A stretch of DNA of 64,000 nucleotides, from contig NZ_KB235914.1 of assembly GCF_000332175.1 (NCBI RefSeq), positions 441,966-505,965 on the forward strand, read 5' to 3'. The DNA comes from Pseudanabaena sp. PCC 6802 (lineage in GTDB: Bacteria > Cyanobacteriota > Cyanobacteriia > Pseudanabaenales > Pseudanabaenaceae). Positions 8,035 through 49,247 of the stretch are shown here, one piece after another. A program made the position numbers and the translations under genes. Under the pieces are notes generated by a model. The model did no database searches. It saw only the letters and a list, made by a program, of their open reading frames with translations, and was not told the origin of the DNA. How positions within the stretch are numbered: position 1 is the first letter of the stretch; each line of letters starts with the position of its first letter.

Positions 8035-9980
8035 TATTGCAAATGACGACGCAAGAAGGCGATCGTATGTCCGACCTCCAGTACCTGATTGCTGCGTTTG
8101 CCTGAACCGTGCCCCTCATCCGCAAAAATAATCAGTTGAGAGGGAATCTTACGCTGCTCCAAAGCCACTTGCATTTGTACTGCTTCACCCACTGGTACGC
8201 GCGGATCGTTGGCTCCCTGGATAATCAACAATGGAGCTTTTAATCGCTCGATATAGGTGATGGGTGAAAGTGCAATTAGAGCAGCGCGATCGCGCTGCGG
8301 ATCGCCATATTCAGTAATTCGCAGTTGCCGCCGCGCCGGAGCCGTATTTTGCAGGAATGACAAGAGATTGCTCATGCCAACTAAGGAAACTCCCGCATCA
8401 TAGCTGCCAGCAAATTTGGTCATCCCAATCAGCGCCGAATAGCCGCCATAGCTCCAACCCATAATACCAATCTTAGGGGTTTTGCCATTCACCTGCCAGG
8501 CTTTACGAATGTAGAGAGCGCAGTCTTCAATATCCGTAATTACTCCCAAACGCTTGGCTCCATTATCGGCATTCAGCCAGTTTTTGCCATATCCATCGCT
8601 ACCGCGCACGTTGGGTTCCACGTAAACAAAACCTGCATCTACAAACATCTGCGCTAGGCGATTAAACCCCGCCGTACTTTGTGCTTCGGGGCCGCCATGA
8701 AAATGCACGACGACGGGACATGCTTTCTGCTCGCACTGGGGCGATCGCCAGACAAACATGGGAATCTTCGTACCGTCGCGAGCGGGATATGATGACAGAG
8801 TGGCAGCAACAAATCGACTCGCATCTACCTCGGGAATGCTGGGTAACACCCACTGGGTTAATTTACCCGTTGACCAATCGTAGACATAGCTAGTGCGCGG
8901 CGCTTTCCCCGTTTCCACCCCGATCGTCATAAAGCGACCATCCCGCGAAATCGTCCCCGCGTAGATACGATCTGCGCCCTCAAATTGAGGTAAAGCGATC
9001 GGCTTAAAAGTCCGCGCATCCATTGCTAACAAACGCGAATAGCCGCGATCGTTGACGCTGTAAATAATCCGTTTTCGAGGGTAATCGATCTCAAAGCCAG
9101 AGACATCCATTGGTACTTCCGGTGAGATCGGCGTAAACTTTCCGTTCGCGTATCGATAGAGGCGACGGAACTCGCCAAACTTTGGCGTGAGTACCAAAAA
9201 TTCATCTGGGCGATCGCCAAATGCGACTTCGTACTCCTGACGCTCGTCCTGTCCTAAAATGGGTTGCAGTTGCTTGCTTTGTTCGTCAAAGGTGTAATAC
9301 TCGCGATAGAGGCTGCCTGTAGCTTTTACCAGTAGCAACTTACCTGTGGGCAACCTGTCAGCGATCGCCCAAAAGCCTGACTCGGAAAAAATAAGTTGTT
9401 TCTGCCTGGTTGTGAGATCGTAGCGATAGATGGCAAAGGAATCGGGCTTGATATCGTTGGCGTTAAAGTAGATGTAGCGCGAATCATCAGAAATGGTGGC
9501 AAAGGACGTTCGCACCTGCGGCAGGTGCTGAATTACCTGTAAAGCGCCGCCGCTAGTAGGTTGAATATACAGACCGGCATTCTCTTCACCCTGGCGATCG
9601 CGAGACAGCACGATATACTTGCCATTCGGACTTATGCCCACAATCGTCGTCGCATCCTGTCCGCCAGTGACCTGCACCGGAAATGTTCGAGCACCGTCGA
9701 TGCGCCATACCTGAGCCACGCCCGTAATGCCCCAACCGAAAAATAACTGCTTGCCATCGGGGGTAAGCATTCCTAAACCAGGCGATCGCACGTCCAGCAT
9801 TGCCTCGATTTGCCGAGTTACGGTTGCGTCGAGGCTGGGAGGTGCATATTTCTTTAACGTAGCGGCATCAATGCTCGATTTGCCCAAACCCGTGTAAGTC
9901 TGTGGGACGGCTATAACTTTTGGGGCAGTACTGAAATATGTAGCAAGAGTTAGGGCAGGTAGAATCTTAAACAGCTTCAT
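8034..9980 (-). CDS. S9 family peptidase (prolyl oligopeptidase type), exported
   Basis: The codon at 10001 is TTG; the ATG at 9978-9980 begins a proper signal peptide (MKLFKILPALTLATYFSTAPKVIA), so it is preferred, giving 648 residues. Residues about 60-380 are a beta-propeller-like region built of short repeats (DGKQLFFGW, SPNGKYIVLSRD, SDDSRYIYF). The C-terminal alpha/beta hydrolase has the nucleophile elbow GWSYGGYS (Ser about 509), Asp in GANDPRVPV (about 592) and His in DEGHGS (about 622). It should cleave short peptides outside the cytoplasm, in the periplasm. The family usually has GGSYGG, so the Trp before Ser is a mild variant. Confidence 0.92.
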   Translation of the reverse strand: MKLFKILPALTLATYFSTAPKVIAVPQTYTGLGKSSIDAATLKKYAPPSLDATVTRQIEAMLDVRSPGLGMLTPDGKQLFFGWGITGVAQVWRIDGARTFPVQVTGGQDATTIVGISPNGKYIVLSRDRQGEENAGLYIQPTSGGALQVIQHLPQVRTSFATISDDSRYIYFNANDIKPDSFAIYRYDLTTRQKQLIFSESGFWAIADRLPTGKLLLVKATGSLYREYYTFDEQSKQLQPILGQDERQEYEVAFGDRPDEFLVLTPKFGEFRRLYRYANGKFTPISPEVPMDVSGFEIDYPRKRIIYSVNDRGYSRLLAMDARTFKPIALPQFEGADRIYAGTISRDGRFMTIGVETGKAPRTSYVYDWSTGKLTQWVLPSIPEVDASRFVAATLSSYPARDGTKIPMFVWRSPQCEQKACPVVVHFHGGPEAQSTAGFNRLAQMFVDAGFVYVEPNVRGSDGYGKNWLNADNGAKRLGVITDIEDCALYIRKAWQVNGKTPKIGIMGWSYGGYSALIGMTKFAGSYDAGVSLVGMSNLLSFLQNTAPARRQLRITEYGDPQRDRAALIALSPITYIERLKAPLLIIQGANDPRVPVGEAVQMQVALEQRKIPSQLIIFADEGHGSGKRSNQVLEVGHTIAFLRRHLQ

Positions 9981-10009
9981 GGGTAGCTTAATAATTTCCA
10001 AAACGAAAG

Positions 10010-10047
10010 AAGGAGCCGATAACTTTCCTCGTTTCGTTCGGCTCCTT
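10010..10047 (-). terminator. Hairpin between lipase and peptidase genes
   Basis: The arms AAGGAGCCG (10010-10018) and CGGCTCCTT (10039-10047) pair perfectly over 9 bp with a 20-base loop. Read on the minus strand, the stem is followed by CTTTCGTTTT, so it fits a terminator for the upstream lipase gene. Confidence 0.5.
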
Positions 10048-10119
10048 CATTCGGTTCGCTCCTCACACATCGGTAAGTGTAGCCTACTTCTGGCAAAATG
10101 GCTACCCCCATACCCAATC

Positions 10120-10800
10120 TTATTTTTTCGTAATATAAACAGACCAAACATCGCTAACTGACGCAGAACCGTACCAGATACCGGATCTGGGCGAATGGTT
10201 AGCGCCTTCCACCACTAAATTTTCTGCCCCATCCAGGTGCGCTGCCTCAATTGGGGTAATGCCATCGCCCCAAGTATTACCAACACCGCAGGTTAACTCG
10301 TAGCTGCTATAGGCTAACCATCTGGACAATTTCTTTTCGCCGTAGACTGCCTTACCAGCGACGCATACATATTTGACGCTTGTATAAAATGCACCCGGAT
10401 AATTGTCGTTGACAAAGCCGAGGTTGCGCCGCGTCCAAGGCTCTAAGCTGCGGTGGGGCGTGCCCAGAGTAATTAAGCTGGCTACCATAGGCTCGGCGTG
10501 CCAAGTGCGATCGTAATAGGGAATGCCACCCAAATAGATCCGCGCCACCCAGCCACCGGCAGAATGGGCGATTATATTTACCTGCGGAACGTCGTACCGC
10601 TGTAAAACATCTTTTACAGTGGCATCCAGTCTCGCTAGAATCGGAGCCATCGATCGCCCCCCTACCGTAGGCAGCCATTCCCACCACTGTAGCGGCACGA
10701 CTTCAGTTGGCATATTTTGTGCGGTTAGCCTTGCTGCCAAGTCGAAATAATCAGATGCACCAGCTAAATAGCCAGGTAAAATTACGCTAGGTAGATACAT
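10120..10800 (-). CDS. Lipase-like alpha/beta hydrolase
   Basis: The codon at 10812 is TTG; the ATG at 10798-10800 gives 226 residues beginning MYLPSVILPGYLAGASDYFDL, a hydrophobic strand with the PGYLA oxyanion-type loop. The nucleophile motif is IIAHSAGGWVARIYL, the standard GHSxG form with Ala before His. A catalytic His is likely in the C-terminal EGANHSPRSG. There is no signal peptide. The family occurs across cyanobacteria and plant plastids and is presumed to act on lipid esters; the substrate is not known. The gene runs toward the peptidase gene with a hairpin between them. Confidence 0.85.
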   Translation of the reverse strand: MYLPSVILPGYLAGASDYFDLAARLTAQNMPTEVVPLQWWEWLPTVGGRSMAPILARLDATVKDVLQRYDVPQVNIIAHSAGGWVARIYLGGIPYYDRTWHAEPMVASLITLGTPHRSLEPWTRRNLGFVNDNYPGAFYTSVKYVCVAGKAVYGEKKLSRWLAYSSYELTCGVGNTWGDGITPIEAAHLDGAENLVVEGANHSPRSGIWYGSASVSDVWSVYITKK

Positions 10801-33619: not shown

Positions 33620-33678
33620 AACCTCATCAATGACAGGGTATGCTTTATGTTTGTGCAATCAACTGGCAACAAATTTTT

Positions 33679-34632
33679 ATGACTGGCAAAATTTATTTAA
33701 CTGGAGTGCGTGCCTATGGCTATGTGGGGTTACTCCCAGAGGAAAATGTCCTGGGACAGTGGTTTACGGTTGATGTCGCGATCGCCACAGATTTTGAGGC
33801 GGCAACTTACAGCGATGCGATCGACGATACCCTGGACTATCGTTCCTGTATTGCCAAAATTGAAACAACGATCCGCACTGCCAAGTTTGCTTTGATTGAA
33901 AGATTGGCTGGGGCGATCGCTGACTCCCTCCTCGAAGATCCCAAAATTGAGAAATTAGAACTGCGGGTCACCAAGCACCCGCCTATTCCTAACTTTCAAG
34001 GTGCCGTTGCGGTTGAAATTAGCCGCGATCGCACGGCTAGAAATCGCTCTATCCAGGACTCTATCCAACTTTCCGAGCGATCGCAACCACAGCAATTACA
34101 ACTCCAGGCTCAAGCTATAATGCAGTCGCCCCAACCCAGTCAATCCGATGGGGTTGTTGTCAAGCAGAATAACCAGCGATCGGCGATTGTCACCAGCATC
34201 CATACAGACGGTGCCTGCTCCAAAAACCCCGGCCCTGGAGGTTGGGGCGTAGTCGTACACTTTGATAATGGTGACGTGCAAGAACTTGGTGGCGGAGCGA
34301 GAAATACGACGAACAATCAAATGGAGATGCAAGGAGCGATCGCCGCTTTAGAATTCCTGGCAGAACAAAAACAGGCAGCACCAGTCGATTTATATACCGA
34401 TAGTAAATATGTAATTGACGGCATCACGAAATGGATTAAAGGCTGGAAAAAGAACGGCTGGCAGACCAAAGACAAGAAACCAGTCAAGAATCAGGAACTT
34501 TGGCAAGAACTAGATCGGCTGAATTCAGCTAACGTAAGCTGGCACTGGGTGGAAGGACATTCTGGCGATCCCGATAACGAGCGCTGCGATGCGATCGCCC
34601 GCGCCAATACTGCCGAACAAGTTTATCGCTAA
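33679..34632 (+). CDS. Dihydroneopterin aldolase fused to ribonuclease HI
   Basis: The start ATG 33679 gives 317 residues and the true FolB start ([23 protein letters not shown]). Residues 1-122 are FolB: Glu of LLPEEN and Lys of [12 protein letters not shown] are the catalytic pair, so the aldolase (dihydroneopterin to 6-hydroxymethyl-dihydropterin, folate synthesis) looks active. A Gln-rich linker (about 123-165) leads to RNase HI (about 168-317), with its four acids in [24 protein letters not shown] and [11 protein letters not shown], and the basic handle [20 protein letters not shown]. Both parts appear complete. The reading frame is continuous with no internal stop, and the spacing leaves no room for a separate rnhA start with a ribosome binding site of note. 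Confidence 0.93.
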
Positions 34633-34703: not shown

Positions 34704-35909
34704 TTATTTTTTTATCCCTACGTATTTTGACAGAGGTAATCGATATCTTCTTAACAGTCTAATTGGACGAATTAGATAATACAGAAAATGAAGAAATTTA
34801 GGTAAAGGTAAAAACTCTAAATCTTGTGCTGTGGGAGTAAACCATCCGTGAGTATTCATCAGGCTCATAAAGATTTCCCATCTATCTTGCCAGCGCTCGC
34901 GCGCGCTCATGTGGAATAAAGCCTGCGGAACTCCCTGGATTTCCTCCTCAGTAGTTTCAGAGAATAATTGCTGACTGACCTGTAGTGCTAGAAAATTCGC
35001 TGCGGCATCGGACTCTAACTCTTTTAATACTTCTTCTGAGAGGGGCGCTTCTAGTAAATTTCTTGCTAGTAGAAGTGCTAGAAAAATTATCCGTTTGCAG
35101 CCTAAATTTGCAGCTCGATCCATAATCTGTTGCCAATCCATACTGGTATTAGCTCTCACTGTTTCTGCTACATCGCAAATCCGCTGCAATGTGTTCCAGC
35201 AGTCTTTAGTTCCGTTTAAACAGAGCATCAAAAAGCAGGCTTCTGGACCTAAATTAGGCACCATTTCTCCAGCTAGGCACAGTGGCTGCTGGCTCTCCCA
35301 CCAGTAGTCATCGCTTGCAGAGCGAGAGTAGTTCTTTGGTAAAATTTCGCAATGCAGGTCGATACAAACGATATCGCCATCAAGCACAAAATGACACTCC
35401 CAGGGCAGATTGAGAATAACCTCATATCCTGTGGAAGCGAGCAAATCTATAGCTTTTTGGTAATGCTGTTTGCGCACGAGGATATCTAGATCCCGTGTTT
35501 GACGCAGGCAAAGGTTTCCATAGGCTGCCGTTGCTAAAATAGATCCCTTGAAGGGGAGGGCGGGAATTTGATGGCTTTCAAACAAGCGCACGATCGCAAT
35601 TAACTTTTGAGCTAGAAAAACGGTACGACAACTGTTAGTTTGAAAATACTCGCGGAGTTGCTTGAGCTTCTCTAGAGGAACAAGTTCAGGGCACGTACTT
35701 TTGAGACTTTGGTACAAAAGTGGCATTACCCCATGCCATTGTGCTACTTGCATCAAATAATCCCAGTCGATATCTTCTAAGAGAAGAGTCCTTAAATACT
35801 CTGCTATTGGAGCGGGCATGTAAGTCCTGGCACAGCAAAGCAACAATTCTTCTTCTTTGCGAACGGTCATAGGCAGCGATTTAGCAGGTGTTCGTGGTAA
35901 TTGGATCAT
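34704..35909 (-). CDS. Lasso-cluster nucleotidyltransferase (NTP_transf_5 type)
   Basis: ATG 35907-35909 is preferred (401 residues); the frame from 35975 would overlap the ABC gene. The family motif is PFKGSILATAAYGNLCLRQTRDLDILVR (residues about 112-140), with the GS turn and the catalytic D-x-D. The rest is helical, without known domains. Uncharacterised nucleotidyltransferases of this type occur in lasso peptide clusters that also have a kinase; in pseudomycoidin such an enzyme acts after the kinase on the phosphorylated peptide. It is the last gene of the cluster, 25 bases after the exporter gene. Three tandem AGGTGAAAG units lie just before its start. Confidence 0.82.
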   Translation of the reverse strand: MIQLPRTPAKSLPMTVRKEEELLLCCARTYMPAPIAEYLRTLLLEDIDWDYLMQVAQWHGVMPLLYQSLKSTCPELVPLEKLKQLREYFQTNSCRTVFLAQKLIAIVRLFESHQIPALPFKGSILATAAYGNLCLRQTRDLDILVRKQHYQKAIDLLASTGYEVILNLPWECHFVLDGDIVCIDLHCEILPKNYSRSASDDYWWESQQPLCLAGEMVPNLGPEACFLMLCLNGTKDCWNTLQRICDVAETVRANTSMDWQQIMDRAANLGCKRIIFLALLLARNLLEAPLSEEVLKELESDAAANFLALQVSQQLFSETTEEEIQGVPQALFHMSARERWQDRWEIFMSLMNTHGWFTPTAQDLEFLPLPKFLHFLYYLIRPIRLLRRYRLPLSKYVGIKK

Positions 35910-35913
35910 GCTG

Positions 35914-35940
35914 CTTTCACCTCTTTCACCTCTTTCACCT
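35914..35940 (-). repeat. Three exact 9-base repeats at the nucleotidyltransferase start
   Basis: CTTTCACCT three times on the plus strand, i.e. AGGTGAAAG three times in the transcript, 4 bases before the ATG at 35909. Each unit contains AGGTGA, usable as ribosome binding site and, in the ABC frame, as stop codon. Confidence 0.8.
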
Positions 35941-37767
35941 ATAGTGTTGGGCTTGAATTTCAAACAAATTGGCATAAGTTCCGCCCAACCGTACTAGATC
36001 CTCGTGACTGCCGCTTTCCACAATCGAGCCATCAGTCATTACATAAATGCGATCGGCCATCTTAACTGTGGATAGACGATGGCTGATCAGAATAGCCGTT
36101 TGACCTGCAATTAGCTGGCGAAATCCTTCAAAGACTTCAGCTTCTGCTTTAGCATCCATAGCGCTGGTAGGTTCGTCCAGGACAATCACAGGTGAGTTCC
36201 GCAGGAATGCCCTTGCCAGTGCTACTTTCTGCCATTGACCGATACTAAGTTCTTCACCCTGGTCGAACCAATTTCCCAACATGGTGTCATAGCCTTGAGG
36301 TAATCTGGCGATGACGCGATCGGCTCCAGAACGACGCGCCGCCGCAATTATGCTTTCGTGATTTGGTGGAATGTCAATATTTCCCAAACCGATATTTTCT
36401 CTGACAGTAAAGTAATACTTAACATAGTCCTGGAAAATAATGCTGAATTGGCGGCGCAGTTCTATGATATCAAAGTGACGGATATCGATACCATCAATCG
36501 CGATCCTCCCACTGGTTGGATCGTACAGACGGCACATCAGCTTAATCAAAGTGGTTTTACCAGAGCCGTTTTCACCTACTAATGCTACTATTTCACCTGG
36601 TTTAATCGTCAGGCTAATATCCTGGAGTGCTTGCCTGGTAGAGTTGGGGTATTGGAAGTTCACGCGATCGAAAACAATGCCAGTTGCCATGTTTTGAGGA
36701 ACGGGCTTGGGATGTGCGACTTGAACTATATTGGGTCTCAACCCCAAAAACTCGTAGAGATTGACAAGAAATAAGTTGTCTTCATAGAGCGATGATAGAC
36801 TGCTCAAAACTCCCTTAAGAGACTCCTGTCCGCGTTGTAGAGCTTGGTAATAAAGTACCAGATCGCCAATGCGCAGAATTCCCACGAAGGTTTGATAGAT
36901 GATGAAGCTATAGGCAGTAAGCATGAGAACGATCGCTGCAGCTTGGGCACCTAAACTAGCGAGAAAGCGCTTAGTCGAGATCTCCATATTTTCTCGGTAC
37001 AGTTGCTGCCGTAACTTGTCAAAGCGCCGGCTGAAAAGCGAACCTAAGTCAAATAGACGAATTTCTTTAGCAAAAAGATTTCCTGTCAACAGCCAACTGA
37101 GGTATTCAGTTTCCCGATCGATCGCAGTGCGTTTGCGATGCCAATGGTACATAATCTTGGCAAATTTAAACCGCACCAATACCGCTGGAATTGCTGCCAC
37201 AAACAATACGCCAGCAACTCCCCAATGTAGCGAAAGTAGCAATCCTACCATTGCGACCAGGGAAATAACATTCTGACCGGCTTCTACCAGATTATTCAGG
37301 ATTTGCTTGGGACGATAAGTGGCTTCTTCTTGGGCGCGTTGCAGCGTATCGAAGTACTGGGGATTCTCATAGTACTCCAGATCTACTTCAATGGATTTGG
37401 CATGAATTATACTACTCATATAGTTCTCGATCTGCTGGGATTGGGCAGTATTGACAAGTTCCGCACCGGATGTCAAGACAACGTTGACTAGAGTAACCGC
37501 ACCAGTTAAAGCAATGAGGAGAATTAGTTGAGAGAAGTTAGACGCTCTGTCAGCACTGGTAACGCTGATACTGACCGTATCGATAATCAGCTTTGTGAGA
37601 TACAGTTGCAGTACAGGTACAATGCCCTGAGCGATTAACAAGAAAATATAAATAGCAGTCCAGCCAGGGGAGCTTTGCCAGACCAGGCGCAATGCTGGTA
37701 AAAGCCGCAAGGCATTCTTAAGTTTATGCAGTAACGTTTGCAAGGAGGACATTAAACTTGCTTTCAC
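35935..37767 (-). CDS. ABC exporter (permease-ATPase), lasso peptide D protein
   Basis: A 610-residue half-transporter. The membrane domain (about 20-330) has five to six helices (WTAIYIFLLIAQGIVPVLQLYL; QAAAIVLMLTAYSFIIYQTFV). The ATPase has Walker A VGENGSGKTTLIKL (about 395), Q-loop IFQDYVKYYF, signature LSIGQWQKVALARAF, Walker B VIVLDEPTSAMD and the H-loop ISHRLSTV. There is no peptidase domain, as in McjD-type lasso exporters, where the leader is removed by a separate protease. The start is GTG at 37767, or ATG at 37752. It begins one base after the methyltransferase stop. Probable role: secretion of, and immunity to, the mature lasso peptide. Confidence 0.92.
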   Translation of the reverse strand: MKASLMSSLQTLLHKLKNALRLLPALRLVWQSSPGWTAIYIFLLIAQGIVPVLQLYLTKLIIDTVSISVTSADRASNFSQLILLIALTGAVTLVNVVLTSGAELVNTAQSQQIENYMSSIIHAKSIEVDLEYYENPQYFDTLQRAQEEATYRPKQILNNLVEAGQNVISLVAMVGLLLSLHWGVAGVLFVAAIPAVLVRFKFAKIMYHWHRKRTAIDRETEYLSWLLTGNLFAKEIRLFDLGSLFSRRFDKLRQQLYRENMEISTKRFLASLGAQAAAIVLMLTAYSFIIYQTFVGILRIGDLVLYYQALQRGQESLKGVLSSLSSLYEDNLFLVNLYEFLGLRPNIVQVAHPKPVPQNMATGIVFDRVNFQYPNSTRQALQDISLTIKPGEIVALVGENGSGKTTLIKLMCRLYDPTSGRIAIDGIDIRHFDIIELRRQFSIIFQDYVKYYFTVRENIGLGNIDIPPNHESIIAAARRSGADRVIARLPQGYDTMLGNWFDQGEELSIGQWQKVALARAFLRNSPVIVLDEPTSAMDAKAEAEVFEGFRQLIAGQTAILISHRLSTVKMADRIYVMTDGSIVESGSHEDLVRLGGTYANLFEIQAQHYR

Positions 37768-37768
37768 C

Positions 37769-38890
37769 CTAGGAAAAACTGCTAACTAAGCTCTGGACAA
37801 AACTTATAGCTTTATGAGGTTCTGCGAATAAGTGAGGGTAATCCTGAACCAGATGATGGCTGAGTTTTTCTATTGATAAGGTGCCATTACTATGGGATAA
37901 AACGTAAAGAGCAGCCCTACCTTTATCGTTAATCTGGGGTTGATAGTCCCAGGCAACTTGCTTGATACTCTTAAGTGTTCTCGGCACCGAAAAAAAAGTA
38001 GAACGCACCTGTTGAGTCAGATTGGTTCTTACTTCCCAAGTCCAGTCGCCACAGGGAGGACGTTGCAATTTAAAGACGATCTCCTCACCTGCTGTCAGTT
38101 CGATGGGAGGGTCGAGGGGTAAAAATGCTGCCGACCAATGTAGGGGAGGTTCGTGAGGGGCCGTTGAAAGCCATGTTTCTCCTAACTGCATCTTGAACCA
38201 ACCAGCAAAGCCATGGCACGTTCCAGATTCCGCAATCGCATATTGCACTTCGCTCTGGCAGTAGGTGCTATGAGCTTGATGAAAATCCAGGGTTAACAAT
38301 TTGGCGGGTTCTGCCAAATAGCGAGCCTTGTTCAACTCTTTGTTGTAGTAGTAAATGGATTGACTGGCGTACGTGCGAGCCGGATCGTGGTCTATGCCCA
38401 TGTGAGGTGTCGACCAGGATGCTATTTCTTGTTGATGGAGTTCTTCAGCGCATATGGGTACTGCTTCCATCACCGCTGCTTGGGGAATCATTACTCCCCC
38501 TGGTTTTAAATACTTGTCGCGGGCGTAGAACAGCGATGGCAGCAGATCTTCTTCCAGTAAAAAGTTACCAGTAAATACGGATACGATCGCGTCTACTCGT
38601 TCGGGCAAATTCACCTCTTCAATCTTGCCCTGGAGGCAATGGATGCGATCGCTAAACCCATTGGCTCGCACAATTTGAGCGGCGACGCTAATAATATCTT
38701 CGGGTTCGACCAGATAAACTTGCTTGGCACCTAACTTGGCCGCTAAAAGTCCGTGGATGCCCAGGCCAGCACCTAAATCGAGGACGACACTGTCAGGAGC
38801 GATCGCCTGGGTCAAAGCTCGAGCGTAGGCTTCATTGCGACGAGAATCAAGGGTCATCGATTGTTGACCCTGAACCAATAAATAGCTCAC
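37769..38890 (-). CDS. PRMT-like SAM methyltransferase in the lasso cluster
   Basis: A 373-residue enzyme starting with GTG that overlaps the kinase stop by 4 bases (GTGA), a sign of coupled translation. The SAM site is VVLDLGAGLGIHGLLAAKLGA (about 35-55), with the acidic VEPEDII. The double-Glu loop region is represented by VFTGNFLLEEDLLPSL, and the C-terminal beta barrel is as in protein arginine methyltransferases (LHWSAAFLPLDPPIELTAGEEIVF). The last 60 residues look like a small PqqD-like or winged-helix unit (LSHSNGTLSIEKLSHHL). Its place suggests modification of the lasso peptide, which has two Arg and two Asp in the predicted core. The target is inferred. Confidence 0.82.
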   Translation of the reverse strand: MSYLLVQGQQSMTLDSRRNEAYARALTQAIAPDSVVLDLGAGLGIHGLLAAKLGAKQVYLVEPEDIISVAAQIVRANGFSDRIHCLQGKIEEVNLPERVDAIVSVFTGNFLLEEDLLPSLFYARDKYLKPGGVMIPQAAVMEAVPICAEELHQQEIASWSTPHMGIDHDPARTYASQSIYYYNKELNKARYLAEPAKLLTLDFHQAHSTYCQSEVQYAIAESGTCHGFAGWFKMQLGETWLSTAPHEPPLHWSAAFLPLDPPIELTAGEEIVFKLQRPPCGDWTWEVRTNLTQQVRSTFFSVPRTLKSIKQVAWDYQPQINDKGRAALYVLSHSNGTLSIEKLSHHLVQDYPHLFAEPHKAISFVQSLVSSFS

Positions 38891-39753
38891 AGTTGATGAA
38901 CTTCCTTCAGTAAAAAGTCGTAAACTTGGGGCAACATGACGAAATCGCGGGGGTAAAACAGTTTTTTAACTGGAGTTTGTTTTACCAGGTGGGCGTAAGC
39001 ATTCAAGAGATTGGGATTGGTAGGAATAAAAAGGCTAACATCGTAGCCGTGCGTCAACAAGTCGAACACGGCTTGGGCTTGGGGCAGCCGCTCGGCATAA
39101 ATACGTTCGTCGGGACTTTCATCGAGCAAGTAAATAATGCCAAGAGGAACGGGTTGCTGGTGAAGTACGGCACCTAACTGTGCTGGCTCGTAAAAAATTT
39201 TATAGTCCGTGTCTTCTGAAGCATCCAATCCCAGTATTTCTCCTGCCTCCGGATATAGTTTAATGCGAGGATTTCCCGGTACTATCCGACTATTTTCATC
39301 AATAACCAGAACGTCATCCGTAATAAAACCCGCACCGCGAGAAGCACAGTAAGCACTCAGCGTTGATTTACCTTTCCCGGAATAGCCCACAAAGGCGATT
39401 CCCCAATCTTCTAAAGATACGGCGTTCGCGTGAATTGCCACCTGTCCTTGTAAGTTAAGACAGATACCAGTCAGCACGCTAGTAAACCCAAGCGTGAGTT
39501 CGCCAACATCTATTTCTCTAGCATCGTCTCGGATCAGAATTTTGACATCAGAGCCATCATTACTCACCCAAGCTCCTAATTGTTCCGTCCAGTCAATCCA
39601 ATATGGAGTGCCAGATTTTTTCTTAGCTGTCGGTAAACTAGGGACATATTCCAAGCTCAAACGAACTGTTTGGGGAATTTGCGCTAGATCCCTAGAGACA
39701 GTTTCTAAAACATTCATTGAAAAAATAAGGTGTAGTCTGCCTGCCAATTTCAT
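38887..39753 (-). CDS. HPr kinase-like enzyme, lasso peptide K protein
   Basis: A 288-residue protein related to the C-terminal catalytic domain of HPr kinase/phosphorylase. Motifs: VAIHANAVSLEDWGIAFVGYSGKGKSTLSAYCASRGAGFITDDVLVID, i.e. the HANAV strand, Walker A GYSGKGKST (about 119-127) and the acidic DDVLVID. Such kinases are known in lasso peptide clusters (paeninodin, pseudomycoidin), where they phosphorylate the C-terminal Ser. The N-terminal 90 residues (VRLSLEYVPSL; WIDWTEQLGAWVSNDG) fit the small adaptor part of these enzymes. It is the first gene after the precursor, 331 bases downstream, so the precursor may be made in excess. Confidence 0.88.
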   Translation of the reverse strand: MKLAGRLHLIFSMNVLETVSRDLAQIPQTVRLSLEYVPSLPTAKKKSGTPYWIDWTEQLGAWVSNDGSDVKILIRDDAREIDVGELTLGFTSVLTGICLNLQGQVAIHANAVSLEDWGIAFVGYSGKGKSTLSAYCASRGAGFITDDVLVIDENSRIVPGNPRIKLYPEAGEILGLDASEDTDYKIFYEPAQLGAVLHQQPVPLGIIYLLDESPDERIYAERLPQAQAVFDLLTHGYDVSLFIPTNPNLLNAYAHLVKQTPVKKLFYPRDFVMLPQVYDFLLKEVHQL

Positions 39754-40084
39754 TTAGCAGAAACGGGACAAAAATCAGGACAAGGAAGCACCAACCCATT
39801 CAGCTAGATGCAATTAGATACAGATAGATACAGAGTGCATCTCAAGTTTGCAGGTTCATAACCCCACCTATCCTCCCCTTACCACGGGGAGGTGACGGAG
39901 TCGGAGGGGTAATTGCAAGACCAGGATGATTCCTAGATACCATTAAGGAAGAGTTGCACGGATAAGTGAGGGCTATTGCCTGCTAGAGCAGTAGCTTTGT
40001 TGTATGATAGCCCATCGCATCGTACAACTCCTCTCAAAGACTTCAGACCGTATTTAGAAATACGATCTATATCTAAACTTTATC
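39754..40084. other. Spacer between lasso precursor and kinase gene
   Basis: 331 bases without a gene. It contains the hairpin CCTCCCC/GGGGAGG at 39872-39892 and a decayed repeat around it. A plus-strand frame here (39976-40191) is antisense to the precursor and not accepted. Confidence 0.5.
39872..39892 (-). terminator. Possible attenuator after the lasso precursor gene
   Basis: A perfect 7-bp stem with a 7-base loop, about 190 bases after the precursor stop and before the tailoring genes. No T-tract, so it may rather limit read-through or protect the precursor mRNA. Confidence 0.35.
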
Positions 40085-40237
40085 TCATCCATCCACCATC
40101 ATCATCCTCATTGCCATACTCAGGCGAGCAAAGTCTCCATATGCGCCTGTATTCATGGCTTGAGTCATTGCCGCAACGGAACCCAATTTAGAAATTTTGA
40201 TGGCTGAATAAGTCTTTTTGTTGTTTTTGCCAATCAT
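40085..40237 (-). CDS. Lasso peptide precursor (A gene)
   Basis: A 50-codon gene too short for normal ORF calling. ATG at 40235-40237 is preceded by AAGGAG (40246-40251), 8 bases away. The leader is MIGKNNKKTY, then SAIKISKLGSVAAMTQ. It fits the lasso leader pattern: Tyr, a hydrophobic residue in the usual Pro position, Lys-Leu-Gly-Ser-Val, and Thr as penultimate leader residue. Cleavage after TQ gives the core AMNTGAYGD (ring, Ala1 to Asp9) followed by the tail FARLSMAMRMMMVDG. The core starts with Ala rather than Gly and has six Met, five of them in the tail. It lies between cyclase and kinase genes, same strand. It is the only candidate in the cluster with both leader features and an acidic residue at position 9. 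Confidence 0.86.
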   Translation of the reverse strand: MIGKNNKKTYSAIKISKLGSVAAMTQAMNTGAYGDFARLSMAMRMMMVDG

Positions 40238-40479: not shown

Positions 40480-42357
40480 CTACATAGAAGTTATGCATTG
40501 ACGAACATAGCGATCGCTAACTTTTTGATACCAATTAACAAAGGCCAAAAGGTAATATAGCTGATTAGCAGTGTTATTTTGGTAAGGCTCTCCCGGACAA
40601 TATGCCTCAGAGTATCCCTGACGATAACGATCGAGATAAATTTTCAATTGCTCGACATTAACGATTTGCCGCAGTAAAGGAATATCTCGTATTTGCCCTA
40701 AAAGTTCCAAGGCTTGATGTCCTTTACCAAGTCCAGCGTATTTTAGGGGATCGAAATAGTTTTCTTTGGAGCGCCACAGGATATCCTGTGGCAGTTTAGT
40801 TTGATTGGCTTGACGGAGAAATATTTTTTCGTGCATGGAGTCATACTGGAGAGCAGGGGGCAGAGCGATCGCAAACTCTACTAATCGGCGATCTAGTAGA
40901 GGTGAAGTATATTGCAACTGATGTGCAGCGCTCATTAATTTGTAAACCTGACCCATACCAACAGCCCCAGCAGAGTCGATTCCCCACATAATCATCCGCC
41001 ACTGGTCTGAGGATAGCGTACTTTCATAATATTGCTGGATGGCTAGCCGTGTCTGCATTGTTTGGGCATAGGCTGGTGCAATCCAGACAGGTAAGGGATT
41101 AGACAGGCGTTGCCTTCTCGCAAACCATGGCGCGCGCAAAAATCTGGGCAGTCGAGGCAGTACGAATTCTCGCCAAACTGCTGAGTGCCAGCGCCCTTCG
41201 GTTTTCAGGATATGGAGTACTTTTCGGCAGCAACCAGCTCGTGCTAAGTCTGACAAGCTCGTATAAAATAGTTCGTCCCCCCCTTCCCCATCAAAAACCA
41301 ATCCAAATCCTTGCCTTTGGATTTGCTCCATCAGGCTAATATTCATCGCCAGCGTGTAGCTTACTAAGGGATCGTCAGTAACTGGTAAGCTGTGCCAGGG
41401 TTCGCTCAAAGACCAGGCGCGATCGCTATTGACTGGATGCCACCTTACCTGGGGATATTGCTGTAAAAAAGATTGAATTGGTTGGCGCTCGTCAAATTCT
41501 GGAAAAATATCGGTCACGGTTGAGAATGCATCTACCACTGGCAAGTGATTTAGTAAGGAAATCGTAACTGTAGTCGAGTCCAGCCCGCCACTGAGCGTAC
41601 TGCAAATCGATCGACAACTGCGCAAACGATCTTTGGTAGCTCGATCCAATATATGCCAAAGCTCCTCGTAGTATATCTCTGGCGATCTCCGTGAGTTGTA
41701 GGATGCAGATATGGCCAATCGTGCAATTTGTCGCTGTTGCAGTTGCCCGGATTGGAGCACTAGCGCGAACCCCGGTCGCAGGCGCGCGATCGCGGCAAAA
41801 GGGGTGATGCCAGGCGGATGTGCCCACAAGTTGCAGATAGTATGGGCGAGGTAGAGTTCGTCCAGTGCTTTACTCACTTGGGGATGCAGCAATAGAGTTA
41901 CTACCCTTGAAGATAGCAGCAGGGTCTTACCATCCCAGTAGTAAGCAAGCGTGCGACCTCCCACAGGATCGCATCCCACCAGCAGTAGATCGCCGAAGGC
42001 ATCCCAGAGAATAAAAGCAAACTCACCGATCAGGTATTTTAAGCAATCGATTCCCCATCGGCGATAACTTGCAATCAGCAGTTGCGCATCGGTGGTAGAA
42101 CTTGGAAGATCGGCTAAAAGCAATTCGCGTGCATCCAGGCGACCATCCCAGACCAAAACGCAACCAAGAAATTCGACTACGGGTGCTTCATGACAGGATT
42201 CAGGTGTATCAAAGAATTGATTGCATCCTAGACTAAGACATACTTTAGTATCGTGCCAGTCGCCCTGTCCATCCTGTCCTAGCACGTGCAGATCGTCCAA
42301 CATGTTTTGCCAGGGAGTAGGCTTCTGGCTGTTCCAAACACCTAAGATGCCGCTCAT
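40480..42357 (-). CDS. Lasso cyclase (asparagine synthetase-like, C protein)
   Basis: A 625-residue homologue of asparagine synthetase B. The N-terminal glutaminase-like domain begins MSGILGVWNSQK: Ser instead of Cys at position 2, so it cannot use glutamine, which is the rule for lasso cyclases. The synthetase domain has the ATP motif CSTLSGGLDSTTVTISLL (about residue 254) and VFDGEGGDELFY. It should adenylate the Asp side chain at core position 9 and close the ring on the N-terminal amine of Ala1. It follows the B1 gene by 63 bases and precedes the precursor gene by 242 bases. Confidence 0.93.
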   Translation of the reverse strand: MSGILGVWNSQKPTPWQNMLDDLHVLGQDGQGDWHDTKVCLSLGCNQFFDTPESCHEAPVVEFLGCVLVWDGRLDARELLLADLPSSTTDAQLLIASYRRWGIDCLKYLIGEFAFILWDAFGDLLLVGCDPVGGRTLAYYWDGKTLLLSSRVVTLLLHPQVSKALDELYLAHTICNLWAHPPGITPFAAIARLRPGFALVLQSGQLQQRQIARLAISASYNSRRSPEIYYEELWHILDRATKDRLRSCRSICSTLSGGLDSTTVTISLLNHLPVVDAFSTVTDIFPEFDERQPIQSFLQQYPQVRWHPVNSDRAWSLSEPWHSLPVTDDPLVSYTLAMNISLMEQIQRQGFGLVFDGEGGDELFYTSLSDLARAGCCRKVLHILKTEGRWHSAVWREFVLPRLPRFLRAPWFARRQRLSNPLPVWIAPAYAQTMQTRLAIQQYYESTLSSDQWRMIMWGIDSAGAVGMGQVYKLMSAAHQLQYTSPLLDRRLVEFAIALPPALQYDSMHEKIFLRQANQTKLPQDILWRSKENYFDPLKYAGLGKGHQALELLGQIRDIPLLRQIVNVEQLKIYLDRYRQGYSEAYCPGEPYQNNTANQLYYLLAFVNWYQKVSDRYVRQCITSM

Positions 42358-42420: not shown

Positions 42421-42741
42421 TTAATCAGAAACTTTGTAAATCAGCCCGTAACTCGATAATTCCTCTATAAAAAACTCTAGATCGTTAAGAACTCGATCGC
42501 GATCCACTTCATATTCGTCAATTATGTTTTCAACCACATGGGCAAAAGGCTGTTGTTTTTGCAAAGCTTCCCAAAATGGCAAACTGGTTTCGCTTAAACT
42601 GTAGTACATGCCAGAAGAAACATGTAACAAAACCGCTTCATTCTCTACGTAACTGCAAAAAACGTCATCAACTACTTTAAAGACTTGAGCCTTCAATAAA
42701 TCTTCGCTTGTCGATACATTGTTTTGACTGTTTGTATGCAT
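42421..42741 (-). CDS. PqqD-like RRE protein, lasso B1
   Basis: A 106-residue PqqD fold: FKVVDDVFCSYVENEAVLLHVSSGMYYSLSETSLPFWEALQ, then VVENIIDEYEVDRDRVLNDLEFFIEELSSYGLIYKV. In lasso clusters this RiPP recognition element binds the precursor leader through the Tyr/Pro/Leu face and delivers it to the B2 protease. It is separate from B2 here (split B1/B2 type), lies upstream of the cyclase gene and is transcribed with it. The first 15 residues are polar and probably disordered. Confidence 0.93.
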   Translation of the reverse strand: MHTNSQNNVSTSEDLLKAQVFKVVDDVFCSYVENEAVLLHVSSGMYYSLSETSLPFWEALQKQQPFAHVVENIIDEYEVDRDRVLNDLEFFIEELSSYGLIYKVSD

Positions 42742-42982: not shown

Positions 42983-43468
42983 TTACTTCATAAACATCGC
43001 TGGCAACTTTACCTCTATTGGACGCTCGAACGGGACAAAATGTTGCCGTATATTTGGTCGATCGTTCAAAACTTTGTTCTGATACTCTACCCACGCATGG
43101 GCTTGAACCTCTCCAGCAATCTGTTGTACTCCTATGCGCAAGTCGCTAACAATGCCCTGACGACGTAGTAAATACCACAAAACCAGCGATCTTTTCAGAC
43201 AGTTGGCCCAATACTGACTGTAATGAGCTGCGATCGCCACCATTCGTGCTGTTGTTTCAACCTGCAGCCATAAAGATTCGGGCGATCGTGAAGTTGCCTG
43301 TGGGCATAGCTTCAAGAGCGCATATTGGGTTCGTCCCATTCCCAAAAGATGTATGCAGAATGCTACTAATGGCAGTAAGACCAATGCCTGTAACAACAGC
43401 GATTTCTCTTGCCAAGACAGTCTTATGAATTTGCCAGCCTTGCTAAATAGGGCTCCAAAATGTGACAT
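42983..43468 (-). CDS. Lasso leader peptidase, B2 protein (transglutaminase-like)
   Basis: A 161-residue cysteine protease of the transglutaminase-like superfamily. Catalytic triad: Cys in YWANCLKRSLVLWYLLRRQG (about residue 89), His in AHAWVEYQ (about 122) and Asp in LNDRPN (about 136). The N-terminal stretch LLLQALVLLPLVAFCIHLLG is hydrophobic, as in most B2 proteins. It removes the leader from the precursor after RRE binding. It is the first gene of the cluster; 241 bases separate it from B1, and the 540 bases upstream must hold the cluster promoter. Confidence 0.93.
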   Translation of the reverse strand: MSHFGALFSKAGKFIRLSWQEKSLLLQALVLLPLVAFCIHLLGMGRTQYALLKLCPQATSRSPESLWLQVETTARMVAIAAHYSQYWANCLKRSLVLWYLLRRQGIVSDLRIGVQQIAGEVQAHAWVEYQNKVLNDRPNIRQHFVPFERPIEVKLPAMFMK

Positions 43469-44439: not shown

Positions 44440-44479
44440 GTGGTTGCACCACCACATACTGAGGTTATTGCGATTGATG

Positions 44480-45340
44480 TTTTTATCCAAGTCAAAGCGC
44501 CGCCCTCGTTCAACTCCAGTCAGCCAGCTAACTCGCATTCAAGCGACTAAGGGATGGGGATCGCTCAAGCTAGACGAATTGTGGCGCTATCGGGATTTGA
44601 TTTATTTCCTGTTATGGCGCGAGATCGTCGCTCGTTATAAACAGATGGCTCTAGGACCACTATGGTTGGTAATTCAACCGTTGTTCCTGATTACGATGAA
44701 CACGCTGGTGTTTGGAACTTTGGCCAAACTACCATCAGATGGAATTCCCTATCCATTATTCAATTTCGCAGGCGTACTACCTTGGCAGTTTTTTGCAGGA
44801 GCGCTAGCAAGAGTTTCTGGCAGTTTAGCTAATAATCAACAACTGATTACCAAAGTTTATTTCCCCCGTCTCGTCATGCCAATTGTGGGGGCTTTGTCCG
44901 GAGTATTAGATTTTCTGGTTTCCTTAGGGCTATTTCTGATTATTATGCCCCTTTACCAGTTTTTCCCAGGCATAAATGTCCTAGCAATACCATTTTTACT
45001 CATTTTTGCCGGAGCGATCGCTTTAGCAGTTGGATTGTGGCTGGCATCACTTCAAGCCCGATTTCGGGATGTGGGGTTTATGCTGAGTTACATATTGCAG
45101 GCCTGGATGTATGCAACACCTGTGGTGTACGCTAGCAGCATCATTCCAGAGCAATGGCAGTTTGTATACCGACTAAATCCAATGACAACGGTAGTAGAGG
45201 GATTTCGCTGGGCTCTATTGGGCAATGGGACTTTGCAATGGTTGCCCTCATTGATTTCGGTTGCGATCGTATTGATATTGTTGGTAACTGGAGCTTACGT
45301 ATTTCGGAGGTCAGAGCGCACTATTGTTGATGTTGTGTAA
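44480..45340 (+). CDS. wzm: ABC-2 permease for polysaccharide export (Wzm/KpsM type)
   Basis: ATG at 44480 is chosen over the TTG at 44444 (286 residues). The family entry is LDELWRYRDLIYFLLWREIVARYKQMALGPLWLVIQP, followed by six hydrophobic segments and the loop RLNPMTTVVEGFRWALLG. It forms the membrane channel that moves a finished, lipid-linked glycan out of the cytoplasm. The matching ATPase gene follows 49 bases downstream. It is related to, but clearly different from, the lone permease at 26613. Confidence 0.92.
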   Translation, partial: FLSKSKRRPRSTPVSQLTRIQATKGWGSLKLDELWRYRDLIYFLLWREIVARYKQMALGPLWLVIQPLFLITMNTLVFGTLAKLPSDGIPYPLFNFAGVLPWQFFAGALARVSGSLANNQQLITKVYFPRLVMPIVGALSGVLDFLVSLGLFLIIMPLYQFFPGINVLAIPFLLIFAGAIALAVGLWLASLQARFRDVGFMLSYILQAWMYATPVVYASSIIPEQWQFVYRLNPMTTVVEGFRWALLGNGTLQWLPSLISVAIVLILLVTGAYVFRRSERTIVDVV

Positions 45341-45389
45341 TGGGTTGCTGACAACTCAGATAGTAAAGCATTTTATTTAGAATCCGCTT

Positions 45390-46646
45390 ATGTCAGATAC
45401 AGTTATTCAAGTAGAAAACTTGAGCAAGCGCTACAAAATTGGCTTGCGAGAAAAACAAGCTAAGACGCTCAGACAAGCGGTTAAAAGAATTGCTAGTTCC
45501 CCATTTAAGTATTTAAATTCTGTGTTGAGAGAGCCAACACCGGAAGAGGTATTTTGGGCGTTGCAGAATATTTCATTCGAGGTAAAGCAGGGAGATGTAG
45601 TTGGGATTATTGGTCGCAATGGTGCTGGAAAGAGCACGCTCTTGAAGATTTTATCGCAGATTACGGAGCCAACTTCTGGGTATGCGGAAATTCGCGGTCG
45701 GGTTGGATCGCTCTTGGAAGTGGGAACTGGATTTCATCCAGATTTGACTGGTCGAGAGAATACTTATCTCAACGGCACAATTATGGGAATGAGGAAGCGA
45801 GAGATAGATCGCCGATTTGATGAAATTGTGGACTTTGCAGGAGTTGAGAAATTTATCGATACTCCTGTAAAGCATTACTCCAGTGGCATGTATACGCGCT
45901 TAGCATTTGCAGTAGCAGCGCATTTGACACCAGAGATTTTGATTATTGATGAAGTGCTAGCCGTAGGAGACGCTCAGTTTCAGAAAAAGTGCTTGGGCAA
46001 GATGGAGGATGTGGCAGAGAAAGAGGGTAGAACTGTCTTATTTGTAAGCCATAGCATGGGAGCCGTTTCTCAATTGACTGCTAAATGCCTTTTTTTAGTA
46101 AATGGCAAGATGATAAGCTATGGACCAACCCAAGAGATAGTCAACAAGTACGTTCAGTCAGGCTATAGCCAGCTTTGCGAAGGAAAAATCTACAAGAAAG
46201 ACAAGAGTAAATATGATTGTCAAAAGCCGATTGAGTTTGAGCAAATTAAAGTAGAACAAGGAAAAGATAGTGCTATTGAGTGCGAGATCCTTTACATAGT
46301 TCGCATGCCCATTAAAAGCGTTATTGCCATGAAGGTTACTAATAGTCAGGGTTTTGTCATTACCACGGTTAGAGATACAGATCACGACCCCAACTTATTT
46401 TTGAAAGCTCAGGGACAATACAGAGCAAAATTTAGCTTGTCAGCCGATGATTGGTGTCCAGGTATTTATTTTCTGACTTTCTCATTAGCAGATATGGTGA
46501 GTAAAAGATACGAAATCTTAGAAGAAATTTTATCTTTTGAAGTTAGTTTAAACGACAAGGATAAAACACCTGGATGGTCTCGTGAAGGTTTATTTCTCAA
46601 ACAAACATGCTGGGAAATAAGTCCATTAGATTTTTCTTGTATCTGA
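45390..46646 (+). CDS. wzt: ABC ATPase for polysaccharide export with C-terminal binding domain (Wzt type)
   Basis: A 418-residue ATPase. The nucleotide-binding domain has Walker A IGRNGAGKSTLLK (about 74-86), the Wzt-type GRVGSLLEVGTGFHPDLTGRENTYLNG, signature YSSGM, Walker B LIIDEVLAVGD and H-loop FVSHSMG. Residues about 270-418 form an extra beta-sandwich-like region (VRDTDHDPNLFLKAQGQYRAKFSLSADDWCPGIYFLTF) as in Wzt proteins that recognise the finished end of the O-polysaccharide. This implies chain-length or cap-dependent export. Pairs with the permease just upstream. Confidence 0.93.
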   Translation: MSDTVIQVENLSKRYKIGLREKQAKTLRQAVKRIASSPFKYLNSVLREPTPEEVFWALQNISFEVKQGDVVGIIGRNGAGKSTLLKILSQITEPTSGYAEIRGRVGSLLEVGTGFHPDLTGRENTYLNGTIMGMRKREIDRRFDEIVDFAGVEKFIDTPVKHYSSGMYTRLAFAVAAHLTPEILIIDEVLAVGDAQFQKKCLGKMEDVAEKEGRTVLFVSHSMGAVSQLTAKCLFLVNGKMISYGPTQEIVNKYVQSGYSQLCEGKIYKKDKSKYDCQKPIEFEQIKVEQGKDSAIECEILYIVRMPIKSVIAMKVTNSQGFVITTVRDTDHDPNLFLKAQGQYRAKFSLSADDWCPGIYFLTFSLADMVSKRYEILEEILSFEVSLNDKDKTPGWSREGLFLKQTCWEISPLDFSCI

Positions 46647-46922: not shown

Positions 46923-49247
46923 ATGTATAGCTCTTTTAAACAAGCAGTTAAGCAATTAACTAAATCAATTCTGACCGATCGCCAACTGCGCCAAGTTAGG
47001 AGAATCGAACATCTTCAGGCTTTAGGTAAACTTGCACTACAAGATTTCAGGGTTTACCAGCTCGGGCAAATTTTTCCCATGAAACCCCACACGCTTAATT
47101 TACTAGTAAATGACGTGTGTAACTCTCGGTGTCAAATGTGTTTGATTTGGCAACAAAAAAAGAATAAGGAGATGACTCCCGAAGAGCTAGTCAAAATATT
47201 AAACGATGACTTATTTAGCGAGTTGAAATACGTTGGTGTTAGCGGTGGCGAGCCAACCTTAAGACCAGACTTACCTGAATTGTTCGAAGCAATCTGTTCT
47301 AAGGAACCCAAGATTCTTGGAACTGGAATTATTACTAATGGAATTATTGAAAATCAGGTTAGAGAGAGAATCCTAGCTTCTGCTGAAGTTTGCAGAAAAT
47401 ATGGTGTAGGATTCAATGTGATGATTTCTTTGGATGGCATAGGCCAAGTTCACGATGCTGTCAGAGGTCGAAAAGATAACTTTGAGTCGGCTATTTCTCT
47501 CCTCAGGTTTTTCCACAATGAAACAGATATCCCAACATCATTTGGATGCACTATTACCAGTACGAATGCCATATATGTCGATGAGTTGCTCGATTTTGCT
47601 AAATCAGAAGGTCTATATGGCAGATTTAGGGTAGCTGAGTATATTCAAAGGCTCTATAACGAGGGGCAAACAGAGTTTATTAGGTCGTTCGACGATAAAA
47701 TGCTCTATCACCTAGCACTATTCTTCTTCCGAGCTGAGCATGACTTTGAGACAACATCACTCTTTCAAAAAACGTATCGAAATATCAGGGGAATGCTGGT
47801 TGAAGGTAAGTCTAGACAAATAAGATGCCCTTATCAAACTGGGGCTGTGGTAATGACTGCCCGTGGAGAGTTGCTCTATTGCGCTCCCAAATCCCCAACC
47901 TTGGGAGATGCGTTAACGACCCCAGCCAGTAAACTATATTTTTCAAATGTGGCAAAGCGGAAAGCAATTCTTCAGAAGGACTGTGGCAACTGCATTCACG
48001 ACTATCATATGCCACCTACGTTTCAGGAAACACTATCTAACTACTTAGAAGACCACAGAAGAAGTAAATATAGCTGTTCAAACCTATTGAAACTTGCTGC
48101 GAAGCAGATCGAACAGAGGCAACCTGTTGAGGATATAGCGAGTCTTAGTTCCTCTAAGGTACTGATTGTAGGATGGTACGGCACAGAAACAGTTGGCGAT
48201 AAGGCAATTTTATGGGCAGTAGTTGATAAGCTTCGTTCGCGCCCAAATCCACCAAAGAGAATTTATATTAGCAGTCTTTACCCATTCATCTCCCAATGGA
48301 CTATTAAGGAAATGAATCTTGAGAATGTCTCAATTCTTGAAACGTACTCAAGAGAATTTGAAGCAGCCTGTGACGAGGTTGATGAAGTTGTGGTTGGTGG
48401 TGGCCCCTTGATGGATATCGAGCCGCTCAATCATATACTTTACGCTTTTATTCGAGCGACCCGCAATAAAGCAATTTGTAGAGTAGAAGGATGCGGTGTT
48501 GGTCCACTCAACCATCCCCTTTACATTAATGTAGTTTCCGAAATCTTCAGGCTGTCTAATTGTATAATGCTTCGCGATCGAGCTTCTGAAAACTTCAGCC
48601 TGCAAAAATTCCCGATATCCACAGCAACAGTAATCCCCGATCCAGCAACTGACTACGTTGGCTATATAAAAAACTCGGGTATTCTGGAAAAGAGTTTGCC
48701 TCTACTTAGTTCCACAAGAAATGTCTCATGTTTCCTGAGAGAATGGTCGACTGAGTACAGTGGTTCGCTAAGCACAGCAGAATTCACTTCAATGAAACAA
48801 GAGTTTGAAACTCAGCTCGTGCAACTGGTGATGGCTATTGCTCGAGCTAAGAATTTAGATATCCATCTATTACCTATGCATACTTTCCATGTTGGTGGAG
48901 ACGATCGTATCTTTAACCGACAATTTGCCCAAAAATTATCCAGCTTGACAGAAAAGCATCAGACGAAACCATCAATAGATTTTGCCAGAGGACCTGTATC
49001 TCCTCTTGAAATTCTACAAAGCATGTATCGTGCTGAGCTTAGCATTTGCATGCGATTTCACGCTGTCTTGTTTGCAGAAACTCTGGGAGTACCCTATTTT
49101 GCCATCGACTATACCAATGGTGGAAAAATTAAGGCATTCTTAGAAAGTAAAGGCAAATTAGATCGATTGATTTCTCTGCAAGATATTGCTTTCGGTGATT
49201 GGAGGAATAGGCTCAACGAGTTGATGCAAATCAAAGCAACAATTTAA
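46923..49247 (+). CDS. Radical SAM enzyme fused to polysaccharide pyruvyl transferase
   Basis: A 774-residue two-part protein. Residues about 55-390 are a radical SAM domain: cluster motif CNSRCQMC (about 66-73), SGGEPTLRPDLPEL, SLDGIGQVHDAV, and a C-terminal extra-cluster region with CPYQ, LYCAPKS and CGNCIHD (SPASM-like). Residues about 412-774 are a polysaccharide pyruvyl transferase domain: VLIVGWYGTETVGDKAI, VDEVVVGGGPLMDIEPL, SNCIMLRDRASENFSL and ICMRFHAVLFAETLGVPYFAIDY. One product would thus carry out a radical-based change and a pyruvyl (or related) transfer, probably on a surface glycan. The reading frame is unbroken. First of the glycan assembly genes after the exporter. Confidence 0.88.
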   Translation: MYSSFKQAVKQLTKSILTDRQLRQVRRIEHLQALGKLALQDFRVYQLGQIFPMKPHTLNLLVNDVCNSRCQMCLIWQQKKNKEMTPEELVKILNDDLFSELKYVGVSGGEPTLRPDLPELFEAICSKEPKILGTGIITNGIIENQVRERILASAEVCRKYGVGFNVMISLDGIGQVHDAVRGRKDNFESAISLLRFFHNETDIPTSFGCTITSTNAIYVDELLDFAKSEGLYGRFRVAEYIQRLYNEGQTEFIRSFDDKMLYHLALFFFRAEHDFETTSLFQKTYRNIRGMLVEGKSRQIRCPYQTGAVVMTARGELLYCAPKSPTLGDALTTPASKLYFSNVAKRKAILQKDCGNCIHDYHMPPTFQETLSNYLEDHRRSKYSCSNLLKLAAKQIEQRQPVEDIASLSSSKVLIVGWYGTETVGDKAILWAVVDKLRSRPNPPKRIYISSLYPFISQWTIKEMNLENVSILETYSREFEAACDEVDEVVVGGGPLMDIEPLNHILYAFIRATRNKAICRVEGCGVGPLNHPLYINVVSEIFRLSNCIMLRDRASENFSLQKFPISTATVIPDPATDYVGYIKNSGILEKSLPLLSSTRNVSCFLREWSTEYSGSLSTAEFTSMKQEFETQLVQLVMAIARAKNLDIHLLPMHTFHVGGDDRIFNRQFAQKLSSLTEKHQTKPSIDFARGPVSPLEILQSMYRAELSICMRFHAVLFAETLGVPYFAIDYTNGGKIKAFLESKGKLDRLISLQDIAFGDWRNRLNELMQIKATI

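Follow-up and report, generated by a model that had tools for sequence, protein, structure and literature searches.

The window, a stretch of 64,000 nucleotides from the genome of Pseudanabaena sp. PCC 6802, carries a gene for a 50-residue precursor peptide (A, 40085-40237, minus strand), and the evidence supports reading its sequence as a lasso precursor with an Ala1/Asp9 core. The core has a methionine-rich tail, and a methyltransferase with a PRMT fold, M, is encoded in the same cluster. From the sequences of related clusters it is very likely that methionine-rich cores are usual where M is present and not in comparable clusters without M. The explanation that we favour, with slightly less than even confidence, is that A is the precursor of a Met-rich lasso subfamily in which the methionines are coupled to M and would be S-methylated by it.

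The translation of A from its ATG start is MIGKNNKKTYSAIKISKLGSVAAMTQ-AMNTGAYGDFARLSMAMRMMMVDG, in which residues 1-26 would form the leader and residues 27-50 the core, AMNTGAYGDFARLSMAMRMMMVDG, which divides at the ring residue into AMNTGAYGD-FARLSMAMRMMMVDG. A putative ribosome-binding site, AAGGAG, lies 8 nt upstream of the ATG. Thr25 at position -2 is followed by Gln26 and then Ala1, and Asp9 falls within the required core positions 7-9. The core holds two arginines, Arg12 and Arg18, and six Met, at positions 2, 15, 17, 19, 20 and 21; on the assumption of a 2% Met background, the chance of at least 6 Met among 24 residues is p=6e-6. This unusual sequence gives a specific prediction for mass spectrometry, the computed monoisotopic mass of the unmethylated lasso form being 2608.119, with [M+2H]2+ at 1305.067. 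The NCBIfam model lasso_cyano (NF033528) matches A with 25.2 bits (E=1.2e-5), short of its curated cut-off of 33; judged by sequence, A is a relative of this family and not a curated member of it. Because of this match and its location in a full lasso cluster, flanked by C and K, A is more than a chance ORF. It is present once in its own genome (5.6 Mb, 6 contigs searched).

Homologues at the same cluster position in other genomes share the core pattern. The precursor of Myxacorys (L055), 47% identical, reads ...LTQ-NMNVGRYTD-AGFAGANMLMIMAPGGGMAN, and Candidatus Cyanaurora vandensis (L058) has two precursors, ...LTQ-AMNTGSMFD-SMAMTTAS and ...LTQ-AMNTGTMAD-GSLSMNGVPLIS. The repetition of AMNTG....D straight after LTQ in Cyanaurora backs the proposed cleavage site. 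These are the homologues for which a preliminary description of this DNA had advised a search, and together with the cluster context and the leader match they uphold its lasso precursor with an Ala1-Asp9 core. The leader pattern, Thr at -2, Asp9 and the Met at 15, 17, 19, 20 and 21 are as it described, Met2 having been missed, and no better precursor, which it had named as a ground for rejection, was found in any of the six frames between 34 and 48 kb. The description errs for cyanobacteria in calling Ala1 rare: Ala is the commonest first residue of their background cores (14 of 67).

The lasso cluster is complete and lies on the minus strand in the order B2-B1-C-A-K-M-D-N. Adjoining the precursor are a transglutaminase-like leader peptidase, B2 (42983..43468, 161 aa; NF033537 E=2e-24, PF13471 E=8e-21), a PqqD-like RiPP recognition element (RRE), B1 (42421..42741, 106 aa; PF05402 E=8e-15, lasso PqqD models below cut-off), and an asparagine synthase-like lasso macrolactam synthetase, C (40480..42357, 625 aa; PF00733 E=2e-35), whose top NCBIfam match is the lasso cyclase model NF033535 (E=8e-72, below cut-off). 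K (38887..39753, 288 aa) is a kinase of the PEPCK/HprK superfamily; its NCBIfam HprK-related matches fall below cut-off, though the alignment shows the P-loop GYSGKGKST and the HANAV...DD motifs to be kept, and the AlphaFold model (pLDDT 86) resembles PEPCK/HprK folds. M (37769..38890, 373 aa) is followed by an ABC exporter, D (35935..37767, 610 aa; PF00005 E=4e-34), which is 62-74% identical to D of most close related clusters, and by a nucleotidyltransferase-like protein, N (34704..35975, 423 aa; PF14907 NTP_transf_5 E=1e-57). The end-to-end packing of K, M, D and N suggests one translational unit: M overlaps the last 4 bases of K, D begins 1 base past M, and N and D overlap by 41 bases. The gene order C-A-K-M-D is kept in relatives.

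By analogy with established lasso biosynthesis, B1 would bind the leader, B2 would cut after Gln26, C would join Ala1 to Asp9 and D would export the product. In the manner of paeninodin and pseudomycoidin, K may attach a phosphate on which N might then act; the C-terminal Ser targeted by a paeninodin-type kinase is absent, the core ending in Gly and the last residue varying among relatives. The intergenic stretch between A and K (39760-40084, minus strand) is predicted to fold into an RNA much more stable than those of its shuffled versions (z=-3.8), and a long hairpin directly 3' of A may guard the precursor mRNA or curb read-through. The window has no second copy of this palindrome, and around the cluster no sigma-70 promoter or terminator scored above shuffles. 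Two further features of the window, both on the plus strand, are a single ORF fusing dihydroneopterin aldolase (FolB) with RNase H (33640-34632) and a 774-aa ORF with radical SAM and polysaccharide pyruvyl transferase domains (46923-49247), which adjoins an ABC polysaccharide-type exporter (44444-46646).

M combines the PRMT fold with the PRMT oligomerisation domain. It matches PRMT_C (PF22528) with E=8e-14, a profile search of the PDB gave PRMT6 with E=1e-45, and its AlphaFold model (pLDDT 89) was matched by Foldseek to PRMT2/PRMT6 with E about 1e-30. In PRMTs the arginine guanidinium is held by two glutamates. M does not have both: in its double-E loop the first catalytic Glu is replaced by Val105, while the second (Glu114) and the His-Trp of the THW loop are kept. 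SVFTGN stands in place of the PRMT SEWMG in all 16 aligned proteins of the M clade, and remoter lasso methyltransferases carry SDL-RG at this site. The first Glu is kept in L004 and L015, two PRMT-like proteins from the same cyanobacterial family. L015 comes from the window's own genome, which holds three more PRMT-like matches (L013-L015) outside the lasso cluster, one with an internal stop; only L015 was counted in the double-E comparison. At its C-terminus M carries an additional domain of some 60 residues. The idea that this is a second PqqD-like RRE found no support (hhalign against B1, probability 0.1%).

Close relatives of M (41-76% identity) are found in lasso clusters of cyanobacteria (L055, L056, L057, L058, L140 and Calothrix PCC 7716, L064) and of marine Gammaproteobacteria (L067, L069, L071, L120-L124 and Litorirhabdus, L070). 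In the tree this clade is split from the other lasso methyltransferases with support 100/99; the remoter ones, L059-L063, are 30-34% identical and fall in a clade of their own, and such of their precursors as were found are not rich in Met. No M was found on PLSDB plasmids. In L066 (8001-10922), M is split by a stop into two ORFs; it lies with K next to a gene resembling phytanoyl-CoA dioxygenases, and the sequence fetched there contains no cyclase. Behind the cyclase, some clusters carry another methyltransferase, different from M (L057, 6782-7555; L140, 7206-8024; L062, 7763-8575).

To compare cores with and without M, precursors were identified from their position, from the leader pattern or by a tblastn match to A; MxM matches also passed the ORF filter, and all precursors counted match a leader pattern as well. 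Met makes up 72 of 492 residues (14.6%) in the 19 cores of M-containing clusters and 15 of 2220 residues (0.7%) in the 72 cores of clusters without a close M. The remark in the preliminary description that so many Met are unusual is thus borne out, although it had not tied them to the neighbouring methyltransferase. Twelve of 16 clusters with M have at least three Met per core, against none of 47 without (p=7e-10, Fisher test, a value that overstates the evidence because the test ignores kinship and clusters of related organisms are non-independent samples). MxM occurs in 11 of the 16 clusters with M and in 0 of the 72 cores without it. The background set came from an NF033528 search over 388 genomes in which the M-bearing genomes are known, and its cyanobacterial cores contain 13 Met in 2066 residues (0.6%), with MxM in 0 of 66. 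One control core, L060, was entered one residue short and with its first letters altered, which leaves the Met counts unchanged because this core has zero Met either way. L066, L068 and L136 yielded no precursor.

Met-rich core segments include SMVMIMGGMVMVMC (L069), DDMAMSG (L070), AMMGMN (L071) and GFNMGMGG (L064), and the tail of L056, GSGMGMVVDMGND, is also rich in Met. Clusters found only through M were predicted to be Met-rich, and among five fetched after this prediction four have 5-9 Met each, namely L121 (NMNRADMQMMM), L122 (MGQMMVIMRQM), L124 (TMGMSMGMGMGMGMN) and L140 (NMNFIMMNMDM), and the fifth, L120, has a single Met. L067 also has one Met, and two are present in L057 and in each of the second precursors of L123 and L124; given these Met-poor cores, M needs no high Met count. 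In L123 and in L124 (4318-13034) two lasso systems are apparently interleaved, with a pair of cyclases and a pair of precursors, of which one is extremely rich in Met and the other has FFFF and two Cys (SGNFTNINENIFFFFGGMCSDMFVCPS). The sum of Ile, Leu, Val and Met is similar with and without M (23% and 20%), so Met takes the place of the other three. Met and Gly are the only residues common to all 19 cores. Although their cyclases are only about 25% identical, cyanobacteria and Gammaproteobacteria both show the coupling of M with Met, and this recurrence in two phyla is a stronger argument than the p-values. A Met-rich tail is a trait of the family.

Several clusters serve as natural controls. 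The syntenic locus G259 (L106) has the arrangement B2-B1-C-A-K-D, with C 57%, K 52% and D 72% identical to those of the window; its leader is QYSAIKISSLGEINVMTQ and its core, GNGGYLCDGNSTLTQRPGGASNGNRCD, has zero Met. M was not found between K and D, which lie 39 bases apart, nor anywhere in the genome at E<=1e-36. N was also undetected at this locus, so G259 does not isolate M alone. The gammaproteobacterial cluster L135, without M, has the core SLNNSQVDECGNNGHYKGCNRS and zero Met, and the clusters with remoter methyltransferases, L059-L062, have 0, 0, 2 and 0 Met. The gammaproteobacterial clusters L121, L124, L135 and L068 adjoin the same two housekeeping genes, putatively purA-like and hisZ-like, which suggests a common insertion site, occupied in some cases with M and in one without it. 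In Calothrix sp. PCC 7716 (L064, 8001-10960), M is broken near residue 343 by a transposase-like ORF (9194-10660) and the other cluster genes look intact; by its sequence this is a natural case of loss of M.

The best reading of the role of M, tentative and drawn from co-occurrence, is that it would S-methylate the tail methionines with which it is co-encoded to S-methylmethionine, a sulfonium. A hydrophobic tail would in this way become permanently charged. This reading is preferred because M has lost the first arginine-holding Glu and many cores contain no Arg; Val in that position is compatible with a Met substrate, as a thioether requires neither a base nor a guanidinium clamp. We know of no PRMT-fold enzyme that methylates a thioether. 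Lys is nearly absent from the cores of M-containing clusters (2 of 492 residues, against 3% in the background), which fits another cation in the core but does not prove it. A precedent among RiPPs is S-methylated Met13 of longipeptin A, for which the enzyme LopH was proposed (PMC11285071).

The co-occurrence of M and Met does not single out the methylated atom. M might act on another group of a Met-rich lasso peptide, such as a C-terminal or side-chain carboxylate, an Asn/Gln amide or the amino terminus, with the Met having some other role, for example in a flexible hydrophobic tail directed at a membrane target. Nearly every lasso core offers a C-terminus and a ring acid (Asp/Glu), and the targets of known lasso methyltransferases are the C-terminal carboxylate (StspM, LasF) or the ring Asp (LihM/TceM) (PMC9266682, PMC13352647). 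We nevertheless consider it rather unlikely, since it leaves unexplained why Met, and no other residue comparably, tracks M in two distant lineages; the C-terminal residues vary (G, N, D, S, A, P, R, M), the L122 core has no Asn and the L055 core no Ser.

The tails may instead bind a soft metal such as Cu(I) through MxM and MM, as a lasso metallophore or for copper handling, with M tuning the ligand or being incidental. Met-rich MxM motifs of known copper transporters bind Cu(I), and the MxM spacing in 11 of 16 clusters, with L124 and L069 as extremes, would suit this role. The strict link to M is unexplained by it, however, several cores have isolated Met only, and none of the neighbourhoods listed, which were annotated unsystematically, showed a recognisable copper transporter or regulator; we regard metal binding as improbable. 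Methylation of Arg12 or Arg18 by a working arginine methyltransferase was the first idea given the PRMT fold, the two Arg of the window core, the second Glu and the His-Trp, and was set aside as highly improbable because the first catalytic Glu is Val in 16 of 16 proteins and Arg is absent from 8 of 19 cores, its enrichment not being significant (p=0.09). Equally improbable is a by-product of shared cluster ancestry with no functional basis: M is one clade and its cyanobacterial members are related, but the link spans both phyla despite the divergent cyclases, the cores diverge widely apart from Met, and G259 retains cyclase, kinase, exporter and leader without M and Met.

If S-methylation by M is correct, the Met-rich tail and a marker gene, the Val-type PRMT-fold M, would define a lasso subfamily of cyanobacteria and Gammaproteobacteria that lies mostly under present family cut-offs. 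The wider claim, an unrecognised lasso class in two phyla with several S-methylmethionines made by a PRMT re-purposed through the change of its first Glu to Val, is advanced more cautiously still, at somewhat above one third in our judgement. A PRMT-fold enzyme acting on Met might become a tool for selective modification of peptide methionine. The open PubMed Central literature yielded no paper joining lasso peptides with a PRMT or a sulfonium, and the word methionine is absent from the lasso-modification reviews PMC9266682 and PMC13352647; a protein-methionine S-methyltransferase acting in lasso modification would thus be undescribed in the reviews searched, as is any methionine modification of lasso peptides. 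Lasso peptides with Cu(I)-binding MxM tails are likewise undescribed in the papers searched. Even if M acts elsewhere, its association with Met is strong enough to steer experiments.

Among known systems, lasso_cyano (NF033528) shares the leader Y-x-x-x-x-[LI]-x-x-x-G-x-[VLI]-x-x-[LM]-T-Q, separate B1 and B2 and a D8/D9 ring; the window precursor falls below its cut-off, several relatives score lower or are unmatched, and its background cores are poor in Met and lack MxM. In paeninodin and pseudomycoidin clusters an HprK/PEPCK-superfamily K and an NTP_transf_5 N likewise adjoin lasso genes, and in pseudomycoidin such enzymes phosphorylate and glycosylate the C-terminal Ser (PMC9266682); the window core ends in Gly instead, and its cluster has M in addition. 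StspM and LasF (C-terminal ester) and LihM/TceM (PIMT-type, aspartimide) are also SAM-dependent methyltransferases of lasso clusters, but of O-methyltransferase or PIMT types (PMC9266682, PMC13352647), whereas M is of PRMT fold and carries the oligomerisation domain. Longipeptin A shares the proposed chemistry, a sulfonium on a RiPP Met, but has a single Met13 and is not among the lasso peptides of the reviews searched; LopH, possibly a new family with an unproven role, is likened to M by chemistry and not by sequence (PMC11285071). PRMT6 and PRMT2 share with M the fold, the SAM site, the second catalytic Glu and the His-Trp loop, whereas M differs in Val for the first Glu, in its extra C-terminal domain and in a presence that tracks Met and not Arg.
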